Part shown: in pieces, positions 45,236 to 61,721 of the stretch
How the letters are laid out: each line of letters begins with the position of its first letter
Numbering within the stretch: position 1 is the stretch's first letter
Source of the DNA: a virus
Direction: 5' to 3' (one strand)
Virus record (IMG/VR): IMGVR_UViG_3300042389_001478
Coordinates: 124,001-188,000 of that record
Length of the DNA stretch: 64,000 bases
Position numbers and translations under genes: made by a program
The notes under the pieces: model-generated
Databases searched by the model: none
Told to the model about the DNA's origin: nothing
The model's input: only the letters and a program-made list of their open reading frames with translations

Positions 45236-45263
45236 ATTTTACTACAATCGGTCAGTCTGTCAA
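45236..45263 (-). promoter_or_regulatory. Sigma-70 promoter for rIIB
   Basis: TTGACA at 45263-45258 and TAAAAT at 45241-45236 on the minus strand, spacer 16. The first hexamer lies within the last codons of the HNH gene, and transcription would start about 35-40 bases before the rIIB ATG at 45192. Confidence 0.75.
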
Positions 45264-45731
45264 GAGGTCTTTAAGAAAAATCGTACTTTCGTGTATCGTC
45301 CCATCCCAATGGAATTTTGCGTGTTCTTTTTGTGATGGGAAAATCCACAAATTTTTTGGATCATTATCTGTCTTAATTCCATTAACATGATGAACTACTT
45401 CAGATTTTGAAAGTTTTCTATTTAATAGATTTTCTGCTACTATTCTATGTCTTAGTTTTCTTTCTCCATTAATTGTTATACGATTATGTCCTGATTTAGT
45501 TAAACCGTGTTTAAAGCTTGGATGTAATTTGCCAGTTTTTTCATAATTTCTACCTTTTGATCCTGACTGACAATCACTATAGTTTCTTATTAAGATTCCA
45601 TACTTATTTAAGTTATTCCAAATTGCAGTATTGGAACAACCTTTTATTTTAGCTATCTCATATGTAGATAAAGATTTCTCTATATATAGATCGTATAGTT
45701 CTTCATATGATAGCTTATAATTTTTAGGCAT
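45252..45731 (-). CDS. HNH endonuclease with N-terminal helix-turn-helix
   Basis: 159 residues. An N-terminal LSTYEIAKIKGCSNTAIWNN segment looks like a helix-turn-helix. The HNH core is KLRHRIVAENLLNRKLSKSE then VVHHVNGIKTDNDPKNLWIF and SQKEHAKFH, the form common in phage intron-encoded and free-standing homing enzymes (H-H-x-N-G-x). It sits exactly between rIIA and rIIB, so it has probably inserted there. The N-terminal unit may give target specificity. The gene carries the rIIB promoter in its 3' end. Confidence 0.92.
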   Translation of the reverse strand: MPKNYKLSYEELYDLYIEKSLSTYEIAKIKGCSNTAIWNNLNKYGILIRNYSDCQSGSKGRNYEKTGKLHPSFKHGLTKSGHNRITINGERKLRHRIVAENLLNRKLSKSEVVHHVNGIKTDNDPKNLWIFPSQKEHAKFHWDGTIHESTIFLKDLLTD

Positions 45732-51629: not shown

Positions 51630-51851
51630 TTATATCCATCCATATTCATCAAACTTTTCTTTACACTCTTTATTAGCGTCATAATATCCAATATCATAAC
51701 CCTGCTCATGACCCATAGCATAAGCTGCCATCAACCACTTGATTATATCGTCAGTTTTTCCTTTTGCAACACAGTTTCTTATGTCACTTATAGCTCTTTC
51801 GTGTCTAACGCTATATCCTTCGATTTCGTTTATCCAGTGATCAAAAGTCAT
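51630..51851 (-). CDS. Small unknown protein
   Basis: About 73 residues from the ATG at 51851, which overlaps the HNH stop as ATGA; an earlier ATG at 51884 would need to share more with the HNH gene. MTFDHWINEIEGYSVRHERA then KGKTDDIIKWLMAAYAMGHE and GYDIGYYDANKECKEKFDEY. A helical protein of the phage YxxGxxxGxxxG/Y-rich sort; function unknown. Confidence 0.65.
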   Translation of the reverse strand: MTFDHWINEIEGYSVRHERAISDIRNCVAKGKTDDIIKWLMAAYAMGHEQGYDIGYYDANKECKEKFDEYGWI

Positions 51852-52318
51852 AGCATTTCTTTTCTGTGATGTTTCATGTGACAATTAGCACAAAGTAGTT
51901 CGCACTTTTTAATTTCTGATAAAAGTGTTTTCCAAGCTCTGTGCCAACTTTGACATAAGGTAAATTTTTTGTTCTTGGGGTTTTTATGATGAAAGGTCAA
52001 AACATCTGGGTCTTTAATCCCACAATGTTTACATTTTCCGCCTAAATAATCTATTGATTTGATCCTTTGATCATTACGTCTTTTGAATGTTCTACACGTT
52101 GAACATACATTATTTTTTGTCCATCTAAATTCTCTTCCACATTCTGTACAGTGTTTTTTGCTATTTTTATCCCTTTGTGGCAAATGTAGTCTTTTAGTAT
52201 TCTTCATACCGAAAGGAGAACACTCTAAACAATATTGTCTTTTATTTATAATCCTTTCTATTCCATCTATTACAACACGAATCTTAAACTCTTTATTGCA
52301 TTTTAAACATTTTTTCAT
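51848..52318 (-). CDS. HNH endonuclease with several zinc knuckles
   Basis: 156 residues. Four C-x-x-C or C-x2-C pairs (CLKCNKEF, CTECGREF, CSTCRTFK, CKHCGIKD) precede an HNH core VLTFHHKNPKNKKFTL and the final ELLCANCHMKHH. So it is a zinc-rich HNH enzyme of the free-standing homing type. A variant promoter-like site (GGTGTATG, 52350-52357) lies 32 bases upstream. It lies next to a tRNA with a group I intron, a common neighbourhood for homing genes. Confidence 0.9.
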   Translation of the reverse strand: MKKCLKCNKEFKIRVVIDGIERIINKRQYCLECSPFGMKNTKRLHLPQRDKNSKKHCTECGREFRWTKNNVCSTCRTFKRRNDQRIKSIDYLGGKCKHCGIKDPDVLTFHHKNPKNKKFTLCQSWHRAWKTLLSEIKKCELLCANCHMKHHRKEML

Positions 52319-52396: not shown

Positions 52397-52676
52397 TGGC
52401 CCAGGTCGGACTCGAACCGACACTTGACGGATTTTCGTACCACTATAGTTTTCACTACCTTTACAGTTTGTGGTCTGGACTATCTCTTTACCATTACTAT
52501 TTCTAGTTTTAGGTATCGCCTGTTTAGTCTCTACACCTTTCTATTTCTAGACTTGGCTCGGGATTGGCATTTTAAAGCGTTCCCCGAATTTAAGCGATTC
52601 TACTTTACAGATTTCTCCATAAGCACTCAATTTTAACGAAAAAAGTCCGCTACCTCTGCCTTTGGGTTACTGGGCC
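52397..52676 (-). tRNA. tRNA interrupted by a group I intron
   Basis: Minus-strand exons: acceptor GGCCCAG at 52676-52670 pairs fully with CTGGGCC at 52404-52398, discriminator A at 52397. U8-A9 (TA), a D arm with ACC/GGT, anticodon stem GCGGA/TCCGT, short variable loop CAAGT, and T arm GTCGG-TTCGAGT-CCGAC are all present, a class I tRNA. The anticodon loop is split by the intron. With 5' exon ending CTT and 3' exon starting AAAA the loop is CTTAAAA, anticodon UAA, but the class I variable loop does not fit leucine, so the splice site and identity need checking. Confidence 0.88.
52436..52642 (-). other. Group I intron (about 207 nt) in the tRNA anticodon loop
   Basis: The minus-strand sequence after the 5' exon has an A-rich start (TTAAAATTGAG) and the diagnostic core: Q-like AATCCCGAGCC, R-like GGTGTAGAGACTA and S-like AAGAGATAGTCC, whose pairing gives P7. 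P1 can form between the exon CTT and intron GAG with a U-G pair at the splice site, and the intron ends in G (52436). It resembles the cyanobacterial tRNA-Leu intron type and contains no open frame. Exact ends are inferred from group I rules and shift by 1-3 bases. Confidence 0.85.
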
Positions 52677-56866: not shown

Positions 56867-57862
56867 TCAATTGCTCTTATTTTTTACTTCCCTTACATAT
56901 TTCATTAATGGGTTTTCTTGTTTTGGTATTGTGGTCTTATGATTTTTTGTCCATACTGGCAATTTGCCAAACGGATTTACCCTTTTTCTAGGTTTCTGTT
57001 TTTGGTATTCTTGTTGGTGAAGAATCTGAACAATTTCTTCCTGTTCTATTTGTTTTTTCTTTCGATATTCTTCGTCTCTGCGTTGTCTTTTTTGTTCCTC
57101 TGTGTCATTATTTTTTCTTGATTCTTTAATGAAATATGGATGTTCAGCAATAGTTTTTTTTAGCTTATCACTTGCTTCAGGATGATTAAACAGTAATTCT
57201 ATTAGCGGTCTATGATTATCTAAATATCTCCTAATATTTTTTTTGCTTTTTCTACTGTATTTGCGAACCGTATTGGTAATAAAATCTTTCCTGTTTTCAT
57301 CAGTAGCAGGAGCAAGAGTTTTGTATTGCTTATTTCTTTTACGTTTATGTGTCTTGATATAAGAATCAATATCATCTCTAAGAGATTTAATTTCGGGTTT
57401 TGGTTGTTCTTTTTGTTTTTCTATTGTTCCTTTATCTGATAAAACAACAGGCTTTTTCTTATATTTTTTCTTGCGATTATTTTTTGGCTCTAGTATTTGA
57501 GATCTACTATAACCAATATCGCTATTAAATTTTTCAGCCCAAATTTGCCATTCGTCTAAAGTATTTTTGCTATGCTCACCAAATAGTTTATTCAACAAGC
57601 CTTTCTTTTCAGAAACTCTTTTATCTTGTTCAACAAAATTATGACATGGTTCACATAACGTAATTAATTCATGCTGATCTCCTTGACCTAGCATGATAAT
57701 TTTTGTGTAATCAATATGATGAACCATTTTAGATGGAGAGCCACAAACTTGACAACATCTACCGTCTCGTTCTAAAACTAGTTGCCTTATATTCCACCAA
57801 AGTCTAGACTTTATATATGCGTCATAACTTCTAAATCCTAGCTCTTTCCATGCTGGTGGCAT
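56867..57862 (-). CDS. Large HNH endonuclease with basic tail
   Basis: About 331 residues from the ATG at 57862 (MPPAWKELGFRSYDAYIKSR), 4 bases after the ligase stop, with AAGAAAGAGA in the ligase end as a ribosome binding site; upstream in-frame starts overlap the ligase. The HNH core is RQLVLERDGRCCQVCGSPSK then MVHHIDYTKI and LITLCEPCHNFVEQ. The long C-terminal part is strongly Lys/Arg/Gln-rich, probably DNA-binding. A mobile homing endonuclease is the likely reading; the insert follows ligase directly. Confidence 0.9.
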   Translation of the reverse strand: MPPAWKELGFRSYDAYIKSRLWWNIRQLVLERDGRCCQVCGSPSKMVHHIDYTKIIMLGQGDQHELITLCEPCHNFVEQDKRVSEKKGLLNKLFGEHSKNTLDEWQIWAEKFNSDIGYSRSQILEPKNNRKKKYKKKPVVLSDKGTIEKQKEQPKPEIKSLRDDIDSYIKTHKRKRNKQYKTLAPATDENRKDFITNTVRKYSRKSKKNIRRYLDNHRPLIELLFNHPEASDKLKKTIAEHPYFIKESRKNNDTEEQKRQRRDEEYRKKKQIEQEEIVQILHQQEYQKQKPRKRVNPFGKLPVWTKNHKTTIPKQENPLMKYVREVKNKSN

Positions 57863-57866
57863 AATT

Positions 57867-59168
57867 CTATATATCTCTTTCTTCTCCATGAAGAATCTTA
57901 AAAGTGGGGAAGCGAAGACTAAGCCCACCCTTCTCATTTTCTGTCTCTTGAAAATATTGTACAGTTATTTGCTTTCCAAGAATCTTCTTAGGATTCTTAT
58001 AAAACTCCTGCCTTTGTTCAATACTAAAGCCAGACCCTACTCTTACCGTATGACCCTTATGTTGAATCATGACACAACTCAACATAGTCTCCTCACATTC
58101 TGCACCATCCTTAACATAACGAAATGGCCCCATCTCTGTGTCCAAAACTTCGTATTCGTCATCTGAGAACGCTTTATACTTCAACAAGTCTTTGGATCGC
58201 TTGCCTTTATATGGAGCGTCAGATCGAAGCATAAGCCCCTCCCACCCATTCTGACTAGATTCCTTAATCATTTCTTGAAAGTGGGTTTCATCCTTAACCA
58301 AAGATTGTTCCAACAGTGTCAAGCAAGGACATTCATTCTTTCTCATAATCTCTGTAAGATTCTTGAGTCTGATACTAAATGGTCGATTCTGTTCACCCTT
58401 CTGACTATAAAACTCATCATGAGTAATCATATCGAAAATCTTATAGGAAGGATTAGGAATAGTATGATCCTTCTTGCGAAGTTCCTTCATTACTCCTTGA
58501 AAATCCTCGTTACCATCTTCATCAACCAAACAAAGCTCTCCATCAAGAACTACATTAGTAAGACCCAAAGCTTTAATACCATCGCTAACAACGTCAAGAG
58601 TATCAAAGATTTTTCCCGTGCGGGAATAGAAGGTAGTATTGCCAGTAGCATCAACAATACCAATACATCTAGCACCGTCGATCTTCCTGCTAACATACCA
58701 TCCATCCTTCCAGTCTACGATTTTAGGAACATACTTGTCCGCTAGAGCAACACTAAATGTTGGGATATGATCTGGAATAGCCTTATTAATCAGCTTATCT
58801 CCAGCACGGGTTTTCAAATCCTTGTCAATGATGCAGTGAACGAGTTCTTCGTATTCTCTTTGGTTGTCAATAAAGCTATTAACTGCTCCAATGGCATCAT
58901 GACCTGTAATTTCTCTGTTCTTCAAAGCATCCAATAGGTCAAATATAGACTTGTATACTTTACCACGCAGATGACTTTTCTTTTTAAGATTATCACTAGT
59001 CACATTATACTGCCAAAGAGGATGATAAGTATAGAGCAGAATCTTCTTAAGAAAATTCGCACCACTGTCATTAGAGGAAGTATAATCCTCAATAATGCCA
59101 ACCTTATCAAGTGTACTACTGGTTGCTTTCAGATCACGAACAAAACCATTAAGATGCTCAAACGACAT
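57867..59168 (-). CDS. ATP-dependent DNA ligase
   Basis: 433 residues from the ATG at 59168 (MSFEHLNGFVRDLKATSSTL), chosen because AGGAG lies 9 bases upstream, with a consensus promoter before it. The nucleotidyltransferase motif I is WYVSRKIDGARCIGIV with Lys162, motif III VLDGELCLVDEDG, motif IV GWEGLMLRSDAP and motif V KDLLKYKAFSD. The C-terminal OB domain follows with VRVGSGFSIEQRQEFYKNP. It seals nicks in phage DNA, like T4 gp30. It is expressed from its own sigma-70 promoter. Confidence 0.94.
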   Translation of the reverse strand: MSFEHLNGFVRDLKATSSTLDKVGIIEDYTSSNDSGANFLKKILLYTYHPLWQYNVTSDNLKKKSHLRGKVYKSIFDLLDALKNREITGHDAIGAVNSFIDNQREYEELVHCIIDKDLKTRAGDKLINKAIPDHIPTFSVALADKYVPKIVDWKDGWYVSRKIDGARCIGIVDATGNTTFYSRTGKIFDTLDVVSDGIKALGLTNVVLDGELCLVDEDGNEDFQGVMKELRKKDHTIPNPSYKIFDMITHDEFYSQKGEQNRPFSIRLKNLTEIMRKNECPCLTLLEQSLVKDETHFQEMIKESSQNGWEGLMLRSDAPYKGKRSKDLLKYKAFSDDEYEVLDTEMGPFRYVKDGAECEETMLSCVMIQHKGHTVRVGSGFSIEQRQEFYKNPKKILGKQITVQYFQETENEKGGLSLRFPTFKILHGEERDI

Positions 59169-59439: not shown

Positions 59440-60171
59440 CTATGCTAATGGCAAAAAGTCGTAAAAATTATATCTTAATTTTGGTTCTAAAAATATTTTT
59501 CCAGTTAATACATTTTGATTTTTAATTTGATGATCTACTATATCAGCAGCCATTTGTGATATGTTTTTATGTGAAGCTCCATGACCACTACCATGATAGC
59601 TTTGACTTCCAGACCAAACATAAATATAGAATATATTATCTATACCCACATCTTGAGTATAGTCTCCTAGTTTAGTTTTAAGTCTGGACATTAATGATAT
59701 ATCTAAAGAACAAGAATCTTCTGTTTCGTCGTATTTTACTTGTTCAAAAATACTTCTGTCAAACATATGTGTGCTATGAAATATGTTTCTAGAGAGCACA
59801 ATATCTTTTTCGTTTTTTTCATAAAAAGCATTATGAGTATGAAATATTCCGTTAATCATGTGATCATAGCTATAGGACAATCTGTTTTTAAGAAAAACAT
59901 CGTCATCTTCCCAAGTGGCTAATATATCATATTTACATAGTTCTATATTATGATTGAATTTTTTCCCTAAAGGAGTGATCCTTTCGGGATGATTGATGAT
60001 TTTTACTTCAGGATGTTCAAAAATAAGTTCTTGTTTATTAAAATCATTCAGAATTACTAATTCTTTTGGGCCTGAGTAGTCTTGCTCAAGAAAACACTGT
60101 ATGCTATTTTCTAGCAGTCTTTTCGGTCTCCCATATGTTGAGCAATAACAGGATATTCCGGGTAAACTCAT
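59440..60171 (-). CDS. Family 2 glycosyltransferase
   Basis: 243 residues with the GT-A start PGISCYCSTYGRPKRLLENS, the LVILNDFNKQ nucleotide strand and the ATWEDDDVFLKNRL metal-binding DDD. Later YHGSGHGASHKN is a Gly/His segment. It would add a sugar to an acceptor not readable here. Its start overlaps the endonuclease VII gene by 4 bases. Confidence 0.9.
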   Translation of the reverse strand: MSLPGISCYCSTYGRPKRLLENSIQCFLEQDYSGPKELVILNDFNKQELIFEHPEVKIINHPERITPLGKKFNHNIELCKYDILATWEDDDVFLKNRLSYSYDHMINGIFHTHNAFYEKNEKDIVLSRNIFHSTHMFDRSIFEQVKYDETEDSCSLDISLMSRLKTKLGDYTQDVGIDNIFYIYVWSGSQSYHGSGHGASHKNISQMAADIVDHQIKNQNVLTGKIFLEPKLRYNFYDFLPLA

Positions 60172-60512
60172 TGATTTTTGTTCCTAGATAAAAAATAGTT
60201 CATAGCGTTAGTAATGCCTATCATATTATCTCCAAGTTTACCTATGCCAGTATTGCATGGTTCGCACAACCATCCTCTAAAAGTATTATCGTCATGATCA
60301 TGATCTAAACACCATTTGTATGGTATTTTTTTACAACACTCACAAACTTCTGGTTTTGGTGGAGCTTTTTTATGTAGTTTGCTTCTTATCTTGGAATGTT
60401 TTTTAACACATTTTCGACATCTACTATCAAGATTATCCTTGTACATACTGTGTTTGGGAAAACTTGCCTTGTTTTTTCTTTTCAAACAGTATGAACAAAT
60501 TTTTCTGGACAT
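60168..60512 (-). CDS. Recombination endonuclease VII (T4 gp49-like)
   Basis: 114 residues. The zinc pairs are CSYC near residue 6, CRKC near 33 and CECC near 59, and the catalytic part WCLDHDHDDNTFRGWLCEPC then NTGIGKLGDN matches endonuclease VII (PF02945). It resolves branched DNA, such as Holliday junctions, before packaging. The small size lacks the long T4 C-terminal dimer region, so it may be a minimal form or a homing-type relative. It overlaps the glycosyltransferase gene. Confidence 0.9.
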   Translation of the reverse strand: MSRKICSYCLKRKNKASFPKHSMYKDNLDSRCRKCVKKHSKIRSKLHKKAPPKPEVCECCKKIPYKWCLDHDHDDNTFRGWLCEPCNTGIGKLGDNMIGITNAMNYFLSRNKNQ

Positions 60513-61641: not shown

Positions 61642-61721
61642 TACTCCTGCTTGGAATCGAACCAAGTCCCCTTTCGGATTACCTTATAAGAGTAACTGCC
61701 GGGAACCACCGGCACAGGAGC
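61642..61721 (-). tRNA. tRNA with anticodon loop CTTATAA (UAU, Ile-type reading)
   Basis: Acceptor GCTCCTG at 61721-61715 pairs with CAGGAGT at 61649-61643 (one G-U), discriminator A. D stem CCGG/CCGG, anticodon stem TTACT/GGTAA with loop CTTATAA, T arm CTTGG-TTCGATT-CCAAG. The variable region TCCGAAAGGGGA is longer than usual and can form a small arm, so identity is not certain. The promoter at 61730-61758 lies just upstream. No CCA encoded. Confidence 0.8.

Follow-up and report, generated by a model that had tools for sequence, protein, structure and literature searches.

A compact group I intron within the gene for a short-armed phage tRNA-Leu(UAA), from a family shared by class I and class II tRNAs

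A single tRNA gene at 52676-52397 (-) of a metagenomic virus sequence has its anticodon loop interrupted, which raises the questions of what the insert is, where it would be removed, and which amino acid the resulting tRNA would carry. The window analyzed here is the whole stretch of 64,000 nucleotides (positions 124,001 to 188,000 of IMG/VR record IMGVR_UViG_3300042389_001478), and the gene runs from G1 at 52676 to A73 at 52397. According to a 2014 review, the phage group I introns then known were all located in protein genes, with none in tRNA genes (PMC3984707).

Excision of 52642-52436 leaves a tRNA of 73 nt (72-73 nt had been expected in the initial annotation), for which ARAGORN predicts a tRNA-Leu(UAA) fold whose acceptor, D, anticodon, and T stems are all complete. 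The acceptor stem extends from G1-C72 to G7-C66, the D stem comprises 3 bp, the anticodon stem (GCGGA/UCCGU) closes the loop CUUAAAA, and the T stem (GUCGG/CCGAC) follows a variable loop, CAAGU, whose 5 nt place the molecule in class I, in agreement with the initial view of the exons as a full class I tRNA with a short variable loop. CCA is not encoded in the gene. At default settings, ARAGORN did not call the intron-bearing tRNA-Leu gene in the window; with introns allowed, it moved the boundary by one base and called Phe(GAA). The features of the locus are listed in Table 1.

Table 1. Features of the interrupted tRNA gene, its intron, and the adjoining endonuclease gene (positions in the window)
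Feature	Position	Strand	Sequence or size	Remarks
5' exon, tRNA-Leu(UAA) nt 1-34	52643..52676	-	34 nt, GGCCCAG...GCGGACUU	ends CUU / U34; same layout in intron-less L390
Group I intron	52436..52642	-	207 nt	RF00028 match, empty-site boundaries, covariation
Internal guide sequence	52625..52628	-	GAGU	forms P1 with ACUU of the exon (52646-52643); wobble pair G.U at the 5' splice site
P3, 5' strand	52594..52598	-	AUCGC	pairs with GCGAU 52519-52515
P7, 5' strand	52525..52529	-	GACUA	pairs with UAGUC 52482-52478; pseudoknot with P3
P9 with P9b	52439..52474	-	ACCAC/GUGGU (P9)	shortly before omega-G; 96.5-100% of cells paired, two-sided changes
3' exon, tRNA-Leu(UAA) nt 35-73	52397..52435	-	39 nt, AAAAUCCGU CAAGU ... 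A73	starts AAAA
Free-standing HNH endonuclease gene	51848..52318	-		78 bp downstream of the tRNA; PHROG 2255, E 5.9e-31

The splice junctions were examined in relatives of the window phage, located through the neighboring phosphoesterase gene. One of them, L390 (a 204,625-bp contig), has this tRNA gene at the corresponding locus in uninterrupted form, the two tRNAs being identical at 68 of 73 bases. The alignment with L390 runs at 87.7% identity up to 52643 and resumes from 52435 at 84.6%; bases 7105 and 7106 of L390 are adjacent where the window has the insert, the missing segment is exactly 52642-52436, and the junctions 52643/52642 and 52436/52435 are the exact breakpoints of the alignment. 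The 3' end of the intron is an omega-G at position 52436, and exact excision restores the gene in the form seen at the L390 empty site. In addition, GACUU^ and G^AAAAUC bound every one of the 34 homologous introns compared, including those of the cyanobacterial contigs L269 and L277. The empty site and the invariant boundaries together indicate that CUU^AAAA is joined and that the mature anticodon is UAA. They likewise rule out the anticodons UUU (Lys) and UUA, which the initial annotation had allowed for shifted intron ends, and they refute its suggestion that the anticodon might not be UAA.

The insert itself was matched by cmscan to the Rfam group I model RF00028 at 52652-52454 (-), with 70.8 bits (gathering score 50) and an E-value of 5.9e-16, which confirms the initial proposal that the anticodon loop contains a group I intron. 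The core motifs that had been picked out by eye are also real: GGTGTAGAGACTA and AAGAGATAGTCC contain both P7 strands, and AATCCCGAGCC contains P4/P6 strands. We drew a 13-helix model with a P3/P7 pseudoknot on the window sequence and tested it on 34 diverse phage and bacterial introns. Across these introns, the 55 pairs of the structure were standard pairs in 92.1% of cells (vs. 73.2% when shuffled and at most 41.7% when slid), two-sided changes occurred in 37 of the 55 pairs, and the covariation score was 0.511 (vs. 0.156 after shuffling and no more than 0.109 after sliding). P7, by analogy the putative guanosine-binding region, was paired in 100% of cells; P3 showed two-sided changes in all five pairs, with its four inner pairs unbroken; and the U.G, U-A, and C-G pairs of P1 were invariant in 34/34 introns, the U.G at the 5' site being U8.G23. 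The insert displays structural features of group I membership, i.e., a P3-P9 core with the P7 pseudoknot, a P1 U.G pair at the 5' site, and an omega-G end. Bulge-helix-bulge tRNA introns of Archaea and eukaryotes are of the splicing-endonuclease type, usually lie at 37/38, and are without a ribozyme core; an intron of this kind is ruled out by the position of the insert at 34/35 and by its full ribozyme core.

The Phe(GAA) call that ARAGORN printed for the unspliced gene when introns were allowed corresponds to splice sites one base upstream (CU^...C^GAAAA), and a class I body would be normal for tRNA-Phe. However, such a shift would give the intron a terminal C in place of the G and abolish the U.G pair at the 5' site, the intron-less L390 allele reads CUUAAAA, G^AAAA and CUU^ are common to all intron-bearing relatives, and the Leu D-arm motif occurs in 0 of 13 Phe tRNAs surveyed, which together make this placement of the splice sites extremely improbable. 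A single G.G mismatch adjoining P1 could be taken as a sign that the intron has decayed and that the tRNA is a non-functional pseudogene, no longer spliced. Such decay is highly improbable given that all helices are intact with compensatory change across relatives, the exons keep every stem, and a tRNA-Leu(UAA) is kept at the locus in every one of the informative relatives (30/30). As the virus record is metagenomic, an unrelated intron might also have been joined to a tRNA during assembly, but the identical arrangement recurs in a contig recorded separately (L036/L367), and the locus contains orthologous introns in 16 further class I and 6 class II contigs, so that the chance of an artefact is negligible.

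With regard to the amino acid, the window tRNA carries the bacterial Leu identity set, namely A73, A14, A15-U48, G18G19, and A20a, and is devoid of the long variable arm that is a class II feature. The determinants reported for E. coli tRNA-Leu are A73, A15-U48, G18G19, and A20a, with A14 named alongside A73, and the long arm is dispensable in tests made with minimal RNAs of E. coli (PMC9976931); the LeuRS of the phage host may differ. A pattern search for intron-less class I Leu(UAA) returned at least 120 phage loci with at least 93 distinct sequences, all of those listed having A73. The combination of the Leu D-arm, A14, A15-U48, and A73 is conserved in more than 100 phage homologues while their acceptor stems vary, and the intron-less class I body is annotated as tRNA-Leu(taa) in phages such as Rhodococcus phage Trina. 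Because a looser D-arm pattern was unspecific and matched other isotypes too, we used a strict test consisting of a GG-NAGA D-loop with a 3-bp stem, A14, A15-U48, and A73. This test was passed by 71/100 class I Leu(UAA), 7/14 class I Leu(UAG), 12/21 class II Leu(UAG), and 8/11 class II Leu(CAA) tRNAs, but by no tRNA of any other isotype surveyed in the same loci. UUA is the commonest Leu codon in the open reading frames of the window (28% of Leu codons; 35% GC). Judged from its sequence, the tRNA would by far most likely accept leucine, and the other isotype entertained in the initial annotation gives way to a class I tRNA-Leu(UAA) with many intron-less homologues in phages. Class I tRNA-Leu with a UAG anticodon is also present in phages (L128-L207 and other loci), i.e., the short-armed form is not restricted to UAA. 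Among open-licence papers, we found none on class I phage tRNA-Leu.

Since bacterial tRNA-Leu has been described as always long-armed, with only animal mitochondria said to lack the arm (PMC9976931), a class I body might instead signify that the molecule is not Leu-specific, the UAA anticodon having been grafted onto the body of another isotype and UUA recoded. This is very unlikely: the strict combination of D-arm, A14, A15-U48, and A73 was found only in the Leu tRNAs surveyed, the more than 100 homologues keep the set across variable acceptor stems, and close relatives have a class II Leu(UAA) in this position, as would fit functional equivalents. A different possibility is that the short-armed tRNA-Leu(UAA) is kept to escape defenses that cut variable loops, and that a shared mobile ribozyme passes between the armless and armed forms that occupy a single locus. 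The host defenses Septu and retron-Eco7 cut the variable loop of tRNA-Tyr (PMC13096335), findings that make evasion by a short-armed tRNA-Leu conceivable, but we consider this explanation unlikely.

The group I intron of the window most closely recalls the group IC3 intron in tRNA-Leu(UAA) of cyanobacteria and plastids, with which it shares the site U34/A35, the core motifs, and the P1 guide. The cyanobacterial members in L269 (Cyanobacterium) and L277 (Microcoleus) align with it end to end, which supports the initial remark that the cyanobacterial insertion site is copied here. The phage intron is shorter (207 nt vs. 221-224 nt for those cyanobacterial introns), and it differs from the cyanobacterial and plastid introns in its phage host gene, its class I tRNA, and its lateral exchange between tRNA classes. 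We refer to it as IC3-like by analogy, a label carried over from the likeness to the cyanobacterial introns rather than drawn from a subgroup model. The host of tRNA-Leu(UAA) IC3 introns is usually, but not by strict definition, a class II tRNA-Leu; here it is a tRNA with a 5-nt variable loop. Lak megaphages likewise have introns in tRNA genes, with excision points deduced from intron-less alleles; these were reported in 2019 in tRNA-Tyr(GTA) and possibly tRNA-Thr(TGT) as previously unreported and enigmatic, i.e., in other isotypes, and no ribozyme class is given in the available text of that report (PMC6784885), as opposed to group I here. Animal mitochondrial tRNA-Leu(UUR) shares the UAA anticodon, the short variable loop, and the A73 and A14 identity elements (PMC9976931), whereas the present tRNA belongs to tailed phages and shares its D-arm geometry with bacterial class II tRNA-Leu. 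The same class I body, annotated as tRNA-Leu and without an intron, is found in Rhodococcus phage Trina (91% over 58 nt to the window tRNA) and Pseudomonas phage ZC03. When 24 kb were compared with known phages by megablast, no near relative was found.

The locus between a 96-aa ORF and the downstream genes contains a tRNA-Leu(UAA) in all 30 informative relatives, several of which are contigs that are near copies of one another, in the combinations class I with the intron (17), class I without it (6), class II with the intron (6), and class II without it (1). The introns of L386 (class I) and L385 (class II) are 97% identical and their exons ~60% identical, and the introns closest to that of the window are those of L070 (class I, 88%) and L068 (class II, 86%). 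The same family also occurs in the class II tRNA-Leu(UAA) of a 735-kb phage (L001). In a tree of 76 viral introns, the class I label needs 9 changes, at least 8 of which are required by supported branches, and monophyly of the class I introns is rejected (p-AU 1.3e-58); a wider tree of 156 rows agrees. These comparisons are clear evidence, at the level of sequence, that the family has been exchanged laterally between class I and class II tRNA-Leu(UAA), and the tree is compatible with either an intron jump or a swap of the tRNA body around the intron. The initial idea that the intron may have moved into a new tRNA thus holds insofar as the family passes between tRNA bodies, while the isotype stays Leu(UAA). 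Class II tRNA-Leu(UAA) genes of many bacterial genomes also show the same pattern; some of the contigs concerned may derive from prophages or phages. An exact-pattern search of viral contigs for the same 3' end gave no match.

The intron contains no internal endonuclease gene, 207 nt being too short for one. The HNH gene downstream of the tRNA was considered as a homing endonuclease acting in trans, a role that finds no support: its orthologues adjoin intron-less tRNAs in L379 (61%), L390 (85%), and L394 (79%), and most intron-bearing alleles have no orthologue next to them. Versions of the same intron of ~680-760 nt, long enough for an internal endonuclease gene, are present in class II tRNA-Leu(UAA) of L008, L025, L056, L069, L076, L078, L092, and L096, and L002 has an HNH-like reading frame directly before the intron core. 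Free-standing HNH or endonuclease VII-like genes are scattered through the window (45252-45731, 51848-52318, 56867-57937, and 60168-60512, (-)), one of them between rIIA and rIIB, among otherwise ordinary phage genes.

The tRNA set of the window is very small, comprising tRNA-Leu(UAA) and the only other tRNA called, tRNA-Ile(UAU) at 61642-61721 (-), for UUA and AUA. The latter lies near a tmRNA gene at 61433-61078 (-) (RF00023, 77.1 bits), a phage-borne trans-translation RNA that was missed by ARAGORN; in relatives, the tmRNA tag is GKTSLALAA (L381 and L384) or GETQLALAA (L394).

Overall, the core, boundaries, empty site, lateral exchange, and Leu signature, all apparent from sequence comparison, point to a compact, laterally moving, IC3-like intron that very probably splices itself out of a functional short-armed phage tRNA-Leu(UAA) reading UUA. 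In the proposed mechanism, the exon ACUU would pair with the guide GAGU to form P1, with the U.G pair at the 5' site, and a guanosine bound in P7 would attack after U34. The omega-G would define the 3' site and the exons would be ligated to CUUAAAA, after which the host would add CCA to the 73-nt mature tRNA. The host LeuRS would then charge it with leucine through A73, A14, A15-U48, G18G19, and A20a, the long variable arm being absent, and the charged tRNA-Leu(UAA) would read UUA and UUG.

A clear group I family is now seen in the tRNA-Leu(UAA) of many phages. Its under-annotation may be explained in part by the Rfam gathering score, at which the intron was missed in 5 of 6 intron-bearing loci tried. 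The presence of the intron in class I as well as class II Leu tRNAs at a single locus constitutes a natural record of intron exchange. Finally, the conserved short-armed phage tRNA-Leu contradicts the published view of animal mitochondria as the sole exception lacking the arm (PMC9976931), and these natural molecules make it possible to test whether bacterial LeuRS needs the long arm.
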